NCBI RefSeq assembly: GCF_026627425.1
Contig: NZ_JAPNLH010000004.1
Coordinates: 186,001 to 250,000, forward strand
DNA length: 64,000 nucleotides
Reading direction: 5' to 3'
From: Arthrobacter endolithicus
Lineage (GTDB): Bacteria > Actinomycetota > Actinomycetes > Actinomycetales > Micrococcaceae
Shown here one piece after another: positions 1-7,313 of this stretch. The number at the start of each line of letters is the position of its first letter. The first letter of the stretch is position 1. Below the pieces are notes generated by a model that was not told the DNA's origin, made no database searches, and saw only the letters and a program-made list of their open reading frames with translations. Both the position numbers and the translations under genes were made by a program.

Positions 1-192
1 GCCCAGGAAGCCCTTGCTCTTGAGCTCAGCGCGCAGGGCCGGTTCCACCGTGCCGCTGGTCTCGATCCTTTCGGCCCACGCCTCGCCGGGCCCCTCGACC
101 CAGGCCGTGACCTCCGCCAGGAGGCTTTCGTAAAGTTCCTGCGGCACGGCGCTGCCGCGCCCGTCCAAGGTGGAAGCCTGCCGTACCGTCAT
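1..192 (-). CDS. Acyl-CoA dehydrogenase, N-terminal fragment (runs off the window)
   Basis: Only the first 64 codons are inside the window. The ATG at 190-192 overlaps the TGA of the upstream fusion gene (189-191), so the two are translationally coupled. The visible segment ends in LRAELKSKGFLG, the kind of helix that opens the N-terminal domain of acyl-CoA dehydrogenases; the flavin-binding and catalytic parts lie outside. The family oxidises acyl-CoA to enoyl-CoA using FAD. Coupling to an EPSP-synthase-like/CoA-ligase fusion suggests it acts on the CoA ester made by that ligase, as the dehydrogenase of cyclohexanecarboxyl-CoA cassettes does. The family call rests on a short segment; the pathway role is inference. 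Confidence 0.6.
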   Translation of the reverse strand, partial: MTVRQASTLDGRGSAVPQELYESLLAEVTAWVEGPGEAWAERIETSGTVEPALRAELKSKGFLG

Positions 193-3100
193 TTTTCCCT
201 GGCCTTTCTCGTCGTGCGCGTCTGCGGGACCAGATGCGCGGCGCGCTCGCGCAGCACGAACTTTTGGATCTTGCCCACCGGGTTGCGCGGAATCTGGTCT
301 ATGGGCTCGAGCCGCTCGGGCCAGTAGTGTTTGCTCACGCCGCTGTGCTGCAGGAACCGCTGCAGCCCGCTGAAGCTCAGTTCCGCTCCCGGTGCCAGCC
401 GGACGAAGGCGCAGGCGCGCTCGCCGAGCCGTGCGTCGGGCATGGCAACGATCGCCACATCGGCAATGGCGGGGTGCGTGTGCAGGAGTTGTTCGAGCTC
501 GGCGACCGGAAGCTTCTCCCCGCCGCGGTTAATAATGTCGCGCACGCGACCGGTGATGCGCAGATAGCCTTCATCGTCGATGGTGGCCAGATCCCCGGTA
601 CGGTACCAACCATCGGAGCTGAACGTCTCCGCGGCCAGCTCGGGCCGGTCCAGGTAGCCGTCGAAGACCGTGGGGCCGGTCAGTTCCAGATTGCCCTCCG
701 CCTCCGGCGGCAGCCGCAGCCCGTCGTCGTCGACAATCCTCAGCTGCACTCCGGGCAGTGCCCTGCCGTCGGTACCCCACGCCTTCGACGGCGGGTCCGC
801 CGGTGAGGTGAGCGCACCGAGCCCCGTCTCGGTGGTGCCGAACGCACCGCACACTGCCGTACCGAGCACGCGGGTGGCGCGTTCGGCCAGTGCCCGGGGG
901 ACGGCCGCGCCCGTCACCACGAAGATACGCAGGCGTTCCGGCCGGGGCCCGCCGTCTTCCACTGCCTGCAGTAAATCGGTCAAAAAGGGCGTCGCGGCCT
1001 GCACGAATGTTGCTTCCCACTCATGCAGGATCTCCAACGCGCGGGGAGCATTCCAGACGCTTTGCAGGATCTGCGGGACGCCCAGCGTGAATGACAGCCA
1101 CATCCCGTAGAGGAAGCCCGTCTGGTGCGCCAACGGCGACGGGATATAGATGGAATCGGTGCCGTCCAGGCCCAGCTGGCGGGCTTCCATCAGGGCAGCC
1201 CGGGAAAGCCGCCGGTGCGTATGGATCACACCTTTGGGCCGGCCCGAGGTGCCGGAGGTCAGCAGCAGTTGGGCGGCGTCGTCCGGACCTGGTGCGCGCG
1301 CGTCCAGTGCTGCACGGTCGACGACGGCGGACGCCCAGGCGTGGTGCCAGGGGGACCATTGCACCCGTGGATTGGTGTTGTTGGGCATCAGCCGCGGGAC
1401 ACCTGCCGTGCCGTGCACCACAAAGACGTGCTCGACGCAGATGACGGCGGTGCCGGTGCCGGGACCGCTGCGGTCGAGCAGCCGGGCGATTTCGCTGGCA
1501 TGCTGGCGGCCGCGGAAATTGTCTGCCACCAGCAGCACCTTGGCCCCGGACTGCTGCAGCGCATAGGCAACTTCACGGTCGCCGAAAATCGGCATGATCG
1601 GCGCGATGACCGCCCCGATCCGCAGTGCCGCTGCGGAGATCACGACGAACTGGCGCCAGTTCGGCAGCTGGACGGCGATCCTGTCTCCAGCGGCGACTCC
1701 CAGGTTGAGAAAGACGGTCGCCGCGTGATCAACCTCGCTATCAAGGGCCGCCCAGCTTAGGTGCGACGTCGTATTCCAGCGGGCATCCACCACGGCTAGG
1801 GCGTGCGGTTTCTCTGTGGCCCAGCGCCGGATCCAGTCCGACGCCGTCATGGACTCGGCAGCGGCGCTCTCCTTCGCATCGGGCTCGGCGGGATGATGGA
1901 GCACGGGCCGGCGGGCGGAGCCCTGCTCCACCTCCATATCCAAGCCGAGCGTCTGCATGGCGGCCAGGAATTTCGGATAAGAGATCCGGTACGCATTCGG
2001 GTAGGTCAGCGAGGATCTGCCGGCCGCGGCCGTTGCCGCGACGGCCAAGGACATCAGGACCCGGTGATCGTTGAAGGATGAAAGGTGGGCTCCGTGCAGT
2101 CGGGGAACGCCGCGGATGCATAAATTGCTGCCGTCAAAGGTCAGGTCTGCGCCCATGCTGTTGAGCTGGAGCATGGCCACGACGCGGTCTGACTCCTTCA
2201 GCCGGACGTGCTCCACGTGCCGGAAGACGCTGTCGCCATCGGCCAGGGCCGCCATCACCGAGAGCACCGGCAGCATGTCCGGCACCGTCCGGCAATCCAC
2301 GTCCATCGGCCCCATCCGCCGGCCCTGGTGCCGCACCCGGACGCCGTCGGCCTGCCTGTCGTACTCCATCGGCAGCCCCATGGCGGCCACAATGTCCAGC
2401 AGCTCGGACTCCGGATGGTCGGTGCCGCTGGAGCTGGTCTGGCGTAAGCCGCGCAGCAGAATGTCCGACGGGTGCAGGGCCCCTACGGCCAGTCCGAAGG
2501 CGGCGGAGCCGATATCCGGCGGCAGGACCAGATCCGTGGGCTTCGGCATCTGGTTGGGCGGGATGGTGTAACGCCTGCCGTCCGCGGACACATCGACGTG
2601 CAGGCCGAATTGGCGCATCATGCGCACGGTGAGCTCAATGTAGGTGCGTTCGTTGAGCGGCCCGTCGATGACTACTGTGCTTTCGTCCAGCGCGAACGGG
2701 GCAAGCAGCAGCAGTCCGGAAACCCATTGTGAGAGCGTTCCGGAGATGTGCACTATGCCGCCGCTGGGACGGCGGGCTTTGACCCGGATCGGCGGGCAGT
2801 CAGTGGGGGAGGTGGCGTCAACGCCGAGCTGGCGCAGGGCGGCGAGTAACGGGCCGATGGGTCTGCGTAGGAAGTACTTTTGACCTGTGATGGTCACGTC
2901 GCGGTCTGCCAGGGAGGCCAGTCCCACCATGAAATATAGGGTGCTGCCCGAACTGCCGGCGGAGGCTGCATCCGAGCGCGGGTGGTACGGGCCGCCATGG
3001 ACAATGAAGGTATCTCCGCAGATCTCGATTCGGGTGCCGAGGGAACGCAGCAGTGAAACGGTATAGTCCACGTGCCGGGCGTCGCTGAGCCCGGAAATGT

Positions 3101-3218
3101 GGCTCACGCCGGGAGCCAGCGAGGCAAGGATCAGCGCCCGATGGGCATGATATTTCGAGTTGGGGACCTGGACATCCCCACGGATAAGGTCGTCGGAACC
3201 AATGACGGATAATTGCAC
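189..3218 (-). CDS. Fusion protein: EPSP-synthase-like (AroA) domain + acyl-CoA ligase domain
   Basis: 1009 residues, GTG start. Residues 1-430 are a complete EPSP-synthase-like fold: SKYHAHR (21-27), SQWVSG (163-168), PDMLPVL (313-319), KESDR (341-345), DHR (384-386) and YPKF (414-417). Residues 450-1009 are an AMP-forming CoA ligase with TSGTSGRPKG (654-663), an AHQTGFLYGMW stretch typical of cyclohexanecarboxylate-CoA-ligase-like proteins, and a C-terminal GKIQKF lysine. A short linker (430-450) joins them. EPSP synthase is normally a stand-alone enzyme of about 430 residues. Compared with the E. coli enzyme, the PEP-side residues (K22, D314, E342, R345, R386, K416) are kept, but shikimate-phosphate serines 23, 169 and 197 are Tyr23, Leu162 and Glu190. 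This argues against housekeeping AroA. Coupling to an acyl-CoA dehydrogenase suggests conversion of shikimate to a cyclic carboxyl-CoA. Domains are certain; substrate is inferred. Confidence 0.88.
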   Translation of the reverse strand: MQLSVIGSDDLIRGDVQVPNSKYHAHRALILASLAPGVSHISGLSDARHVDYTVSLLRSLGTRIEICGDTFIVHGGPYHPRSDAASAGSSGSTLYFMVGLASLADRDVTITGQKYFLRRPIGPLLAALRQLGVDATSPTDCPPIRVKARRPSGGIVHISGTLSQWVSGLLLLAPFALDESTVVIDGPLNERTYIELTVRMMRQFGLHVDVSADGRRYTIPPNQMPKPTDLVLPPDIGSAAFGLAVGALHPSDILLRGLRQTSSSGTDHPESELLDIVAAMGLPMEYDRQADGVRVRHQGRRMGPMDVDCRTVPDMLPVLSVMAALADGDSVFRHVEHVRLKESDRVVAMLQLNSMGADLTFDGSNLCIRGVPRLHGAHLSSFNDHRVLMSLAVAATAAAGRSSLTYPNAYRISYPKFLAAMQTLGLDMEVEQGSARRPVLHHPAEPDAKESAAAESMTASDWIRRWATEKPHALAVVDARWNTTSHLSWAALDSEVDHAATVFLNLGVAAGDRIAVQLPNWRQFVVISAAALRIGAVIAPIMPIFGDREVAYALQQSGAKVLLVADNFRGRQHASEIARLLDRSGPGTGTAVICVEHVFVVHGTAGVPRLMPNNTNPRVQWSPWHHAWASAVVDRAALDARAPGPDDAAQLLLTSGTSGRPKGVIHTHRRLSRAALMEARQLGLDGTDSIYIPSPLAHQTGFLYGMWLSFTLGVPQILQSVWNAPRALEILHEWEATFVQAATPFLTDLLQAVEDGGPRPERLRIFVVTGAAVPRALAERATRVLGTAVCGAFGTTETGLGALTSPADPPSKAWGTDGRALPGVQLRIVDDDGLRLPPEAEGNLELTGPTVFDGYLDRPELAAETFSSDGWYRTGDLATIDDEGYLRITGRVRDIINRGGEKLPVAELEQLLHTHPAIADVAIVAMPDARLGERACAFVRLAPGAELSFSGLQRFLQHSGVSKHYWPERLEPIDQIPRNPVGKIQKFVLRERAAHLVPQTRTTRKAREK

Positions 3219-3409: not shown

Positions 3410-3868
3410 CTACAGCGAGACGGTGATCCAGTCCCCGTCGATAGCGGCGTGCAGGGGCGTCAGGGGGCGCTGGGCGGGTCCGGTAATGACGGTTCCGTCC
3501 GCGGCTTGAAAGGACGATCCGTGGCAGGGGCAGTCAAACTTTTTCCCGGCTGCCGCCACCGTACAGCCGGCGTGGGTGCAGATGGCGCTGTAGGCGAGGA
3601 CGGACTTTTCGTCCCGCCGGAACAGCACAATGTCCTTACCATTGGCCTTCGTGCCACCCGTGGTGCCAACGGCCAGATCGGCCAATCGCCCCACCCGGAC
3701 GGGAGTTCCGCCGGCACTGGGAACTGCTGATGGTTTCTGCGCGCTGGCTAAGGCAGCCTGTTGCGCAGAGCATCCCGTCAGTGCCGCAATTGTGCCTGCG
3801 GCGGCACCTGCCGTTAGGAGGGAATGGTTCAGCAGGGTGCGGCGGTTTAGCGGAGCGCTCGAAGTCAT
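3410..3868 (-). CDS. Small Rieske [2Fe-2S] protein with Tat/lipoprotein signal
   Basis: 152 residues. The N-terminus has a twin arginine (RRTLLNHSLL, from residue 9) followed by a hydrophobic stretch and a lipobox ending LTGC (30-33), so it should be exported folded by Tat and anchored as a lipoprotein. The Rieske cluster motifs are CTHAGC (98-103) and CPCHGSSF (113-120), supplying two Cys and two His for a [2Fe-2S] centre. It is shorter than QcrA and lacks its membrane helices. The reading frame extends upstream as far as 4237, but that stretch is antisense to fadB; the ATG at 3866-3868 directly precedes the signal peptide. The electron partner is unknown. It lies downstream of fadB on the same strand with a 68-bp gap. 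Confidence 0.88.
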   Translation of the reverse strand: MTSSAPLNRRTLLNHSLLTAGAAAGTIAALTGCSAQQAALASAQKPSAVPSAGGTPVRVGRLADLAVGTTGGTKANGKDIVLFRRDEKSVLAYSAICTHAGCTVAAAGKKFDCPCHGSSFQAADGTVITGPAQRPLTPLHAAIDGDWITVSL

Positions 3869-3936: not shown

Positions 3937-6087
3937 TCAGGCGCCCAGCTCCGGGTGGAAGAGTTGGCCGTTGACGCGCTCGGATGCCCCTACCCGGTCC
4001 AGATACGGGGTGATGCCGCCCAGATGCATCGGCCAACCCGCGCCGGTGATGACGCAGAGGTCGATGTCCTCCGGACCGGCCACCACGCCCTCGGCGAGCA
4101 TCCGGGCGATCTCGTCGGCCAGTGCATCCTGCGTGCGGGTGAGTACTTCGGCGCTGCTGGAGGGGGTGTCGCCGAAGCTCAGCAGCGCCAGCGTCTCCTT
4201 GGACACAAACTGGCTGCCGTCGCAGTTCTTCTCCCACAGGCCCTTCTTGCCCGCATCGATCAACCGCTGCTGGTTCGCAGAAACGTGAAAGCGATCGCCA
4301 AAAGCCGCGTGCAGGGATTCCTGCACATGCTGTCCCACCGGCAGTCCCACCAGCGCGAGCAGGCCGAACGGGCTCATCGGCAGGCCCATCGGGCGCAGCG
4401 CATTGTCGGCCGTGACCGCATCGGTGCCCTCGTCAAAGACGGCGGTGATTTCGCCGAACATTCGGCCCAAAATGCGGTTCACCACAAAGGCGGCGGCATC
4501 CTTGACCAGGACGGCCGTCTTCCGCAGCGCCTTGGCCGTCTCGAAGGCGGTGGCCAGCACAGCGTCGTCCGTCTTCGGAGCGCGGACAATTTCCAGCAGC
4601 GGCATCAGGGCTACCGGATTGAAGAAGTGGAAGCCGACCAGCCGCTCGGGATGTGCCAGGTCCTCGGCCATCGCGGTAACGGAGAGCGAAGAGGTGTTGG
4701 TGGCGAGGATGCAGGTTTCGGAAACCACGGCCTCCACCTCGGCGAAGACCTGCTTTTTGACGCTGAGTTCCTCAAAGACGGCTTCGATCACGAAGTCTGC
4801 GTCCGCGAAGGCGGCCTTGGAGACGGAGCCGGAGACCAATGCCTTGGTCCGGTTGGCGGCGTCAGGGGAGATCCTGCCCTTGGCCAGCAGCTTGTCCACC
4901 TCCGTGTGCACGTAGCCCACGCCCTTGTCCACGCGGGCCTGATCGATGTCCGTCATGATCACCGGGACCTTGAGCTGCCGGGCGAAGAGCAGGGCGAGCT
5001 GGCTGGCCATCAGTCCGGCACCCACCACACCCACCTTGGTGACGGGGCGGGCGAGTTTTGCCTCCGGTGCACCGGCGGGACGTTTGCCGCGCTTTTGCAC
5101 CAGATCCAGGAAGGCATAAACGGTGGAACGGAACTCCGCCGTCTGGATCAAATCCGCCAGCGCCAGATCCTCCTGCGCGAAGGACTCGGCCTTGCTGTAG
5201 TTCTTTCCCTTCTCCAACAGGTCCAGGAGGCGTGCGGGGGCGGGGGCCGCGTTGGATGTTCTGTCTTCGACGAATTTACGGGCCCCGGCGACGGCGGCAT
5301 CCCAGGCAGCGCTGTTGGCGTCCGAGAGCGGCTCGGCGACGGCGTTGGGCCGGGTCACTGTGACCTCGCCGGTCATGACCTTGGCGGCCCATGCGAGGGA
5401 TTGTTCAACGAAGTCGGCCGGTTCGAAGAGTGCATCCGCGATGCCGAGTTTGAACGCGGCTGAGCCGCTGAGGGTGCGGTTGTTGCTCAGTGCGTTCTCG
5501 ATCATTACCTTCACGGCATTAACCGGTCCGATCAGCCGGGGGAGCAGGTAGACCCCGCCCCAGCCGGGCACCAGCCCCAGGAACGCCTCCGGCAGACCAA
5601 TGGCGCCGGCACCGGTGGAGACGGTCCGGTAATTCGCGTTCAGAGCGATTTCCAGCCCGCCGCCGAGGGCAACGCCATTGATGAAGACGAAGCTGGGGAC
5701 CCCCAGATCGTTCAGGGTGCTGTAGACATCGTGGCCAAGGCTGGCCATTAAGATGCCGGACTCGCGGTCATGCAGGCCCTTGACCGCGGAGAGGTCCGCG
5801 CCGGCGACGAGGAAGTGCGGTTTTCCGGTGACGCCGACGCCGATGATTTCCCCCGCGGCTGCCCGTGCCCGCTGGGCCTCCAGCACACCCTTGAGCTCCA
5901 CCAGCGTGTTGGGTCCCAGCGTGCTGGGGCGGCGGTGGTCCAGACCGTTATCCAGCGTGATCAGGGCAAAGGTGCCGGCGCCGGGACGGCCACCGACCGC
6001 GGGAAGCTGAACGTCCCGTACATACGAGTGGGTGACCACTTCATCGGGAAAGCGCCCGGTAATGGTGCTGTAATCCTGGACGCTCAT
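3937..6087 (-). CDS. fadB: Multifunctional fatty-acid oxidation protein (enoyl-CoA hydratase / 3-hydroxyacyl-CoA dehydrogenase)
   Basis: 716 residues. Residues about 40-230 form a crotonase domain with the oxyanion-hole stretch NGVALGGGLE (137-146) and the second glutamate in LPEAFLG. Residues about 350 onward form an NAD-binding 3-hydroxyacyl-CoA dehydrogenase (VGVVGAGLMAS, 352-362; HFFNPV further on) with the usual C-terminal helical domains. It hydrates enoyl-CoA and oxidises the 3-hydroxyacyl-CoA. The start is the ATG at 6085-6087, which overlaps the thiolase stop (ATGA) and gives the normal N-terminus MSVQDYSTI; a longer frame upstream is antisense or overlapping sequence. With the thiolase it forms the standard two-gene beta-oxidation operon, and the overlap implies coupled translation. 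Confidence 0.95.
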   Translation of the reverse strand: MSVQDYSTITGRFPDEVVTHSYVRDVQLPAVGGRPGAGTFALITLDNGLDHRRPSTLGPNTLVELKGVLEAQRARAAAGEIIGVGVTGKPHFLVAGADLSAVKGLHDRESGILMASLGHDVYSTLNDLGVPSFVFINGVALGGGLEIALNANYRTVSTGAGAIGLPEAFLGLVPGWGGVYLLPRLIGPVNAVKVMIENALSNNRTLSGSAAFKLGIADALFEPADFVEQSLAWAAKVMTGEVTVTRPNAVAEPLSDANSAAWDAAVAGARKFVEDRTSNAAPAPARLLDLLEKGKNYSKAESFAQEDLALADLIQTAEFRSTVYAFLDLVQKRGKRPAGAPEAKLARPVTKVGVVGAGLMASQLALLFARQLKVPVIMTDIDQARVDKGVGYVHTEVDKLLAKGRISPDAANRTKALVSGSVSKAAFADADFVIEAVFEELSVKKQVFAEVEAVVSETCILATNTSSLSVTAMAEDLAHPERLVGFHFFNPVALMPLLEIVRAPKTDDAVLATAFETAKALRKTAVLVKDAAAFVVNRILGRMFGEITAVFDEGTDAVTADNALRPMGLPMSPFGLLALVGLPVGQHVQESLHAAFGDRFHVSANQQRLIDAGKKGLWEKNCDGSQFVSKETLALLSFGDTPSSSAEVLTRTQDALADEIARMLAEGVVAGPEDIDLCVITGAGWPMHLGGITPYLDRVGASERVNGQLFHPELGA

Positions 6088-7313
6088 GCTGCGTTCTCCT
6101 CTTCGGTGGCCGTGCCGTCCCAGTGCGGGTTTTCCCAGATCACGGTTCCGCCCATGCCCAGGCCGATGCACATGGTGGTGATGCCGTAGCGGACGCTGTG
6201 ATCCTGCTCGAACTGGCTGGCCAACTGAGTCATCAGGCGCACACCTGAGGATGCCAGCGGGTGCCCCACGGCGATAGCGCCGCCATAGCGGTTGACGCGC
6301 GGATCGTCGTCGGCGATGCCGAAGTGGTCCAAAAAGGACAACACCTGCACCGCGAAGGCCTCATTGATTTCGAAGAGTCCGATGTCCGCAATACCCAGGC
6401 CGGCCATCTTTAGTGCCTTTTCCGTCGCCGGAACCGGGCCGATGCCCATTACCTCCGGCTCGACGCCGGCAAAGGCATAGGAGATCAGCCGCATTTTGAC
6501 CGGCAGGCCCAGTTCCTCCGCCGCTTCGGCAGACGCCAGCAGGGCTGCCGTGGCGCCGTCGTTCAAGCCGGCGGCATTCCCGGCGGTCACCCGGCCGTGG
6601 GCACGGAAGGGAGTGCGCAGGGACGAAAGGTCCTCCACCGTAGTGCCTGGACGCGGCGGCTCATCGACGGTGTTCAGTGCCCAGCCCTTTTCGGGCTTGA
6701 GCGTTGCGACTGGGACCAGGTCCGGCTGAATCAGACCATCCTGGTAGGCCTTGGCCAGCTTATGCTGGCTTCCGACGGCGAAGGCATCGGTGCGGTCCTT
6801 AGTGATGGCAGGGAAACGGTCATGCAGATTCTCCGCAGTGTTGCCCATATTCAGTGCGGCCGGATCCACCAGGCGCTCGGACATGAACCGCGGGTTGGGA
6901 TCTGCGCCGGAGCCCATCGGATGGTTGCCCATGTGCTCCACGCCGCCGGCGATGACGACGTCGTAGGCGCCGAAGCCGATGCCGGACGCCGTCGTCGTCA
7001 CGGCTGTCATGGCGCCGGCGCACATCCGGTCGATGGCGAAGCCCGGGACCGATTTCGGCAATCCGGCCAGCAGCGCTGCGGTGCGCCCGATGGTCAGGCC
7101 CTGATCGCCGGTCTGCGTCGTGGCGGCAATGGACACTTCATCGATGCGCTCCGGCGGCAGCGAGGGGTTGCGGCGCATCAGTTCCCGAATGCATTTGACC
7201 ACCAAGTCATCGGCCCGGGTACCGGCGTAAATGCCCTTTTCCCCGGCCTTGCCGAAGGGGGTGCGGACGCCGTCCACGAAGACAACGTCCCGTACTTGCC
7301 TGGTATGGCTCAC
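6084..7313 (-). CDS. fadA: Acetyl-CoA acyltransferase (3-ketoacyl-CoA thiolase)
   Basis: 409 residues, the usual thiolase length. The acylated cysteine is C98 in DRMCAGAMTAV; the C-terminal motifs NEAFAVQ, GGAIAVGHPLASSG and CIGLGMGG supply the second Cys and the His of the active site. It cleaves 3-ketoacyl-CoA with CoA, the last step of each beta-oxidation round. It is the first gene of the fadA-fadB operon, and its TGA overlaps the fadB ATG. The upstream region carries a promoter with an embedded palindrome (separate entry), which suggests repression lifted by fatty acids or acyl-CoA. Confidence 0.95.
   Translation of the reverse strand: MSHTRQVRDVVFVDGVRTPFGKAGEKGIYAGTRADDLVVKCIRELMRRNPSLPPERIDEVSIAATTQTGDQGLTIGRTAALLAGLPKSVPGFAIDRMCAGAMTAVTTTASGIGFGAYDVVIAGGVEHMGNHPMGSGADPNPRFMSERLVDPAALNMGNTAENLHDRFPAITKDRTDAFAVGSQHKLAKAYQDGLIQPDLVPVATLKPEKGWALNTVDEPPRPGTTVEDLSSLRTPFRAHGRVTAGNAAGLNDGATAALLASAEAAEELGLPVKMRLISYAFAGVEPEVMGIGPVPATEKALKMAGLGIADIGLFEINEAFAVQVLSFLDHFGIADDDPRVNRYGGAIAVGHPLASSGVRLMTQLASQFEQDHSVRYGITTMCIGLGMGGTVIWENPHWDGTATEEENAA

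Follow-up and report, generated by a model that had tools for sequence, protein, structure and literature searches.

The left edge of a 64,000-nucleotide stretch of the Arthrobacter endolithicus genome (assembly GCF_026627425.1, contig NZ_JAPNLH010000004.1, positions 186,001 to 250,000; the whole stretch is hereafter called the window) carries a minus-strand operon headed by a protein that fuses a 5-enolpyruvylshikimate-3-phosphate (EPSP) synthase-like, or AroA-like, domain to a CoA ligase, raising the question of what such an operon makes. A sequence-only reading of the window had proposed a candidate cyclohexanecarboxyl-CoA (CHC-CoA) cassette. We consider that the operon leads from shikimate to CHC-CoA in the manner of the plmJK-plmL-chcA-plmM genes, and that CHC-CoA most likely primes fatty-acid synthesis, a reading to which we assign a probability of roughly 0.78. 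Gene content, gene order and the presence of a reductase all bore the proposal out, whilst the product is unproven and an old yellow enzyme (OYE) of the cassette type is missing. Comparison of sequences supports a CHC-CoA cassette whose kind is known and whose host setting is new.

The fusion gene (window 189..3218, minus strand) encodes 1009 aa from a GTG start and was assigned to the PlmJK type from its open reading frame (ORF), Pfam and NCBIfam models and orthologues. Pfam matches to EPSP_synthase (residues 12-419, 252.9 bits), AMP-binding (464-856, 233 bits) and AMP-binding_C (907-983, 37.6 bits) delimit an AroA-like half (1962..3185; also defined by alignment and tree) and a CoA-ligase half (270..1829; K983 present in the alignment), joined by a linker of residues 420-463 (1830..1961) that is variable in alignment. 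As the sequence-only reading had described, the fusion stop overlaps the start of an acyl-CoA dehydrogenase family gene, the overlap being 4 nt. This gene is of PlmL type and encodes 427 aa; only its start lies in the window (1..192), and it runs past the left edge to its full extent at 14909-16192 of L005, the longer assembly stretch around the operon (equivalent to window 192 to -1091, minus strand). The reductase expected to the left of the window was found there, wholly outside it, as a ChcA/FabL-like short-chain dehydrogenase/reductase (SDR) of 281 aa on the minus strand (L005 14912..14067; window -1088 to -1933), overlapping the dehydrogenase by a further 4 nt.

The operon was compared with samples of 295 genomes from the family (32 genera), 347 from the order and 394 from the class, the window genome being designated G000. 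A collection-wide scan found 227 relatives of the fusion, and counts of named loci refer to the best 80 of these, with flanks read for up to 10 kb, some of them short; by record title they are mainly Streptomyces (18), Arthrobacter (11), Curtobacterium (10) and Eremiobacterota metagenome-assembled genomes (MAGs; 9). Fusion orthologues occupy open frames of at least 1017 aa in 30 of the 295 family genomes, the window genome among them, and the AroA-ligase fusion is present in all 80 named loci, one of which is cut at a contig end; the fused frame is therefore not an assembly artefact. Nor is it the Micrococcaceae peculiarity that had been supposed, fusion being the general state of the enzyme. 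In Streptomyces sp. G-G2 (L191 9971-14116), a single 1381-aa ORF covers both the fusion and the dehydrogenase matches and may thus encode a triple fusion.

The AroA half has the EPSP synthase fold, and the claim that it is not an ordinary EPSP synthase held up. Residues S23, R100, S169, S170, S197 and K340 (E. coli numbering) have roles in EPSP synthase. Five active-site positions are replaced in 83 to 85 of the 85 fused rows: S23 and R100 have both become Y, S169 has become L and S197 E in 85/85, and K411 has become I or T, also in 85/85. Position 411 is Ile in 83 and Thr in two of these rows, whereas 31 of the 32 canonical rows have Lys there; K411 appears in a passage of PMC3411725 as a residue of the phosphoenolpyruvate (PEP) site. 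The fused AroA sequences also form a separate clade, a branch with SH-aLRT 99 parting 31 fused rows from canonical AroA, and an ordinary aroA lies elsewhere in the window genome (G000:C21, 332 bits). How PEP chemistry may be lost from a carboxyvinyl transferase fold can be examined on this fused half. Two other members of the family were observed: a second, divergent stand-alone EPSP synthase-like gene in G801 (L124 9361-10635), which is placed nearest to the fused clade, on a long branch, and, in the window genome (L004 1462-2994, G000:C20), a protein of the EPSP_synthase family that carries a helix-turn-helix domain at its N terminus.

Several residues are conserved in the remaining parts of the operon. 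The C-terminal lysine of the ligase is kept in 80 of 81 rows, with one gap, and E374 of the dehydrogenase in 75/75. The SDR has Y160-x6-K167 in place of YxxxK, with both residues kept in 61/61 rows (60 loci and the window); Y-x6-K spacing is an enoyl-reductase pattern (FabI/FabL), and the best PDB match is the enoyl-ACP reductase 3oic (174 bits). The SDR is 57-94 % identical to those of named cassettes and is assigned to the ChcA type by this comparison. A structure predicted for it from its single sequence had a poor mean pLDDT (43.2) and was left unused.

Within the family, fusion carriers (AroA-half orthologue of at least 456 bits) belong to 5 of the 32 genera; further orthologues in frames of at least 1003 aa occur in one genome of the order sample (G531) and two of the class sample (G649 and G842). 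The remaining AroA-half matches at 1e-40 reach at most 172 bits. The SDR (at least 316 bits) is present in 33/295 family genomes, comprising 30/30 fusion-positive and 3/265 fusion-negative genomes (Fisher p 5e-38, kinship ignored). With all genes scored at 400 bits or above, except the SDR at 250 bits or above, the order fusion-dehydrogenase-SDR-OYE was found in 53 of the 80 named loci. Incomplete sets comprised 11 loci without SDR, seven without OYE, three with fusion and dehydrogenase and six with the fusion alone. Those without OYE are L133, L134, L136 and L183, two that end soon after (L135 and L198) and L200, whose OYE reaches 319 bits. Amongst those with the fusion alone, contig ends truncate L177, L179 and L186, the remaining 1.9 kb of L185 gave no dehydrogenase match, and L184 and L189 each represent a second Streptomyces copy. 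In g32, the Arthrobacter koreensis/gandavensis group, the operon retains its OYE and the SDR (67-72 % identical) sits elsewhere in the genome, so cassette parts can lie apart.

A midpoint-rooted tree was built from 80 fusions, with L177 and L186 omitted and the window and L119 added. Its eight Eremiobacterota rows cluster together (SH-aLRT 99) within the actinobacterial ones, a placement that suggests transfer of the fusion between phyla. The cassette also occupies core loci in some relatives, lying between ffh and rpsP in L205 and beside tuf in nine named Arthrobacter loci. Arthrobacter loci in which the operon end adjoins tuf were recorded as L109, L110, L115, L118 and L126, and as L143-L149, L151 and L188. 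In Kitasatospora mediocidica, two FabH-like genes stand directly upstream of the fusion (L183 7437-9706).

What the ring acyl group would be used for was approached through beta-ketoacyl-ACP synthases (KASs). Besides FabH and FabF on C14, the window genome encodes a further KAS of FabF type on C33. A PF00109 search of this genome returned FabF, that one FabF-type KAS and three weak matches (24-33 bits, one a thiolase), and no modular polyketide synthase (PKS); a fatty-acid fate is the likeliest for this reason. Across the 80 named loci, only L173 and L176 have flanks in which the KAS query matched a long PKS-like ORF. A FabF-like KAS follows the OYE in 11 of the 80 (L138, L152-L158, L167, L173 and L175), with a second ligase (LIG2) next in six, and a different KAS stands directly upstream of the fusion in 10, namely nine Eremiobacterota loci and L199. 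The Eremiobacterota MAGs with a stand-alone upstream KAS are L163, L165, L166, L169-L171, L177, L179 and L193. CHC genes are accompanied by two KAS types, about 35 % identical to each other, an association in favour of chain extension of the ring acyl group. The C33 KAS has the active-site C, H and H motifs and shows 58-70 % identity to five cassette KASs of its own type, 67 % to the g32 KAS and 41 % to FabF; an 11-row KAS tree was disturbed by long branches, and these statements of kinship rest on identities. Because shikimate-to-ring genes occur here without an antibiotic assembly line, this soil bacterium probably makes omega-cyclohexyl, that is ring-tipped, membrane fatty acids.

From these data we infer a sequence of catalytic steps. 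The AroA-like half would bind unphosphorylated shikimate (or shikimoyl-CoA) and remove water without PEP, and the ligase half would form the CoA thioester. The flavin-dependent acyl-CoA dehydrogenase homologue may then carry out an elimination or redox step on the ring, and the ChcA-type SDR would reduce ring enoyl-CoA double bonds. For the window genome, the PlmM step would have to fall to an OYE of another type than the cassette one or to the SDR by itself. The resulting CHC-CoA would prime fatty-acid synthesis through FabH or the C33 FabF-like KAS, giving omega-cyclohexyl fatty acids.

The C33 KAS forms a pair with LIG2 (L232 5439-8479) that lies between paaK/TetR and paaZ (TIGR02278, 1000 bits) in a phenylacetate cluster. 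G003 and G002 likewise carry the pair close to paaZ; the selected ligase regions read in G004 and G001 hold other ligases. The phenylacetate pathway has a ring-expansion branch. We tentatively entertain, as a minority view, a more specific scheme, a self-contained system for alicyclic lipids, in which an EPSP synthase fold, turned into a dehydratase of shikimate (or shikimoyl-CoA) that needs neither PEP nor phosphate, supplies CHC-CoA to LIG2-KAS as a dedicated pair and not to the housekeeping FabH, and in which this KAS might also take a phenylacetate-derived seven-membered ring, yielding omega-cycloheptyl as well as omega-cyclohexyl acids. A run of SDR-LIG2-KAS, with the SDR first, was found in the three g32 genomes read and in the fusion-negative G008 and G278 (L234 and L236); G232 has the SDR without the LIG2-KAS pair. 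A strict tie between KAS-LIG2 and the fusion was not shown; the pair was met through flank reading, and G008 and G278 carry SDR-LIG2-KAS and no fusion. In these fusion-less loci the run could help the cell to take up preformed cyclohexane- or cyclohexenecarboxylate.

Several results weigh against a route from shikimate through CHC-CoA to fatty acids. The AroA half exceeds the aroA equivalog cut-off (TIGR01356, 304.6 versus 287.25 bits), contrary to the residue-based view that it is no EPSP synthase. The best NCBIfam model for the ligase half, the cyclohexanecarboxylate-CoA ligase TIGR03208, gives 459.6 bits, so far below its cut-off of 792.3 that the half is kin to that family and not a member. 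The best curated models for the dehydrogenase and the SDR are acryloyl-CoA reductase (234 bits, cut-off 640) and the FabL enoyl-ACP reductase (249 bits, cut-off 328), and the SDR occurs without the fusion in G008, G232 and G278. Beta-oxidation-like ORFs, named from reading, lie upstream on the same strand (3937-7313). The chief open point is the absent cassette OYE, a PlmM-type flavin mononucleotide (FMN) oxidoreductase: at 500 bits or above, none was found in the window genome, in G003, in G004 or in four g25 carriers, all of which keep the other three cassette genes, whilst G002 has a local OYE. OYE matches at 1e-60 occur in 109/295 family genomes and reach 500 bits in 23, of which 22 are fusion-positive (the exception is G150). 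The window genome has an OYE on C66 (49 % identity, 455 bits), which a 16-genome comparison had put forward as the missing PlmM partner; it was dropped once the 295-genome search showed it to be a family-wide paralogue present in many fusion-negative genomes.

The absence of this one gene from carriers that keep the other three would fit an operon that ends before CHC-CoA, at a partly reduced or hydroxylated ring acyl-CoA such as cyclohexenecarboxyl-CoA put to another use. We regard this as unlikely, since the g32 SDR sits apart from the operon in the genome and the window genome does have the 49 %-identical OYE on C66. A catabolic operon that activates and degrades cyclohexanecarboxylate, as Aromatoleum or Rhodopseudomonas do according to the abstract of PMC9795900, with the AroA half as a passenger, would account for the upstream beta-oxidation-like ORFs and for the matches of ligase and dehydrogenase to cyclohexanecarboxylate-pathway models (459.6 bits, and 185.6 bits to cyclohexane-1-carbonyl-CoA dehydrogenase, both under cut-off); it is very improbable given an AroA half fused in 80/80 loci, a third gene of enoyl-reductase type and the gene order of phoslactomycin clusters. 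That CHC-CoA starts a secondary metabolite in this organism is equally hard to credit after the PF00109 result, even though second Streptomyces fusion copies have an apparently phoslactomycin-like setting, as in L189, which adjoins a crotonyl-CoA carboxylase/reductase gene also on the phoslactomycin list.

Around the operon, a 191 bp gap separates the fusion gene from an upstream Rieske-type gene (ending at 3410; named from reading), and the SDR and a convergent ECF transporter set lie 0.7 kb apart. Left of the window, L005 8972-13373 holds a nucleoside-hydrolase-like gene followed by this transporter set. Promoter and terminator scans of the operon gave nothing above chance level, L005 13200-19500 had no match to RNA families, no tRNA was found in L005, and plasmid records gave no match at 1e-100.

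Set against known systems, the fused half shares its fold with the EPSP synthase AroA (EC 2.5.1.19) and differs at the K411 site, at other active-site residues and in clade. The SDR likewise shares Y-x6-K and its best match with FabL but falls under that model's cut-off, and its substrate would be a ring acyl-CoA if it is ChcA-like. A literature search for 'shikimoyl-CoA' returned no match. The genes for CHC-CoA in ansatrienin (ansJ-M/chcA) and asukamycin biosynthesis we take to be the same kind of pathway, and Skyrud and others reportedly described in vitro work on this pathway kind in ACS Catal. in 2020. Labelled shikimate is stated in PMC8788734 to enter the cyclohexanecarboxylic moiety of ansatrienin. 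For phoslactomycin, Table 2 of PMC5852498 gives the order plmJK (AMP-dependent synthetase and ligase), plmL (short-chain-CoA dehydrogenase), ChcA (cyclohexenylcarbonyl-CoA reductase) and plmM (NADH:FMN oxidoreductase), genes that serve the CHC starter unit. These phoslactomycin/lactomycin genes share all four types and their order with the named cassettes, and plmJK is one listed gene, labelled as a ligase with the AroA domain unmentioned in that table. Fused Streptomyces relatives are 56-60 % identical to the window fusion. Because the four-gene order matches, the fusion is probably the known PlmJK, which we assume to be an AroA-ligase fusion; the window genome differs in that no PKS was found and the plmM-type OYE is missing from the operon and, as a cassette type, from the genome. 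Alicyclobacillus, the classical producer of omega-cyclohexyl fatty acids, is not among the best 80 of the 227 fusion loci, which does not imply absence. Curtobacterium pusillum is cited for cyclohexyl fatty acids in a passage of PMC3426160, and strain ATCC 19096 (L205), which may differ from those lipid-analysed, has all four genes in one run. Its fusion, dehydrogenase and SDR are 52, 63 and 61 % identical to those of the window; unlike the window operon, its run includes the OYE and sits between ffh and rpsP. Lipid profiles have long shown omega-cyclohexyl fatty acids, and the cassette makes them accessible at the level of genes; from it the trait is predicted for Micrococcaceae of soil, for Cellulomonas and for uncultured Eremiobacterota. 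In sum, the enzymes are of a known kind, and their host and use look new.

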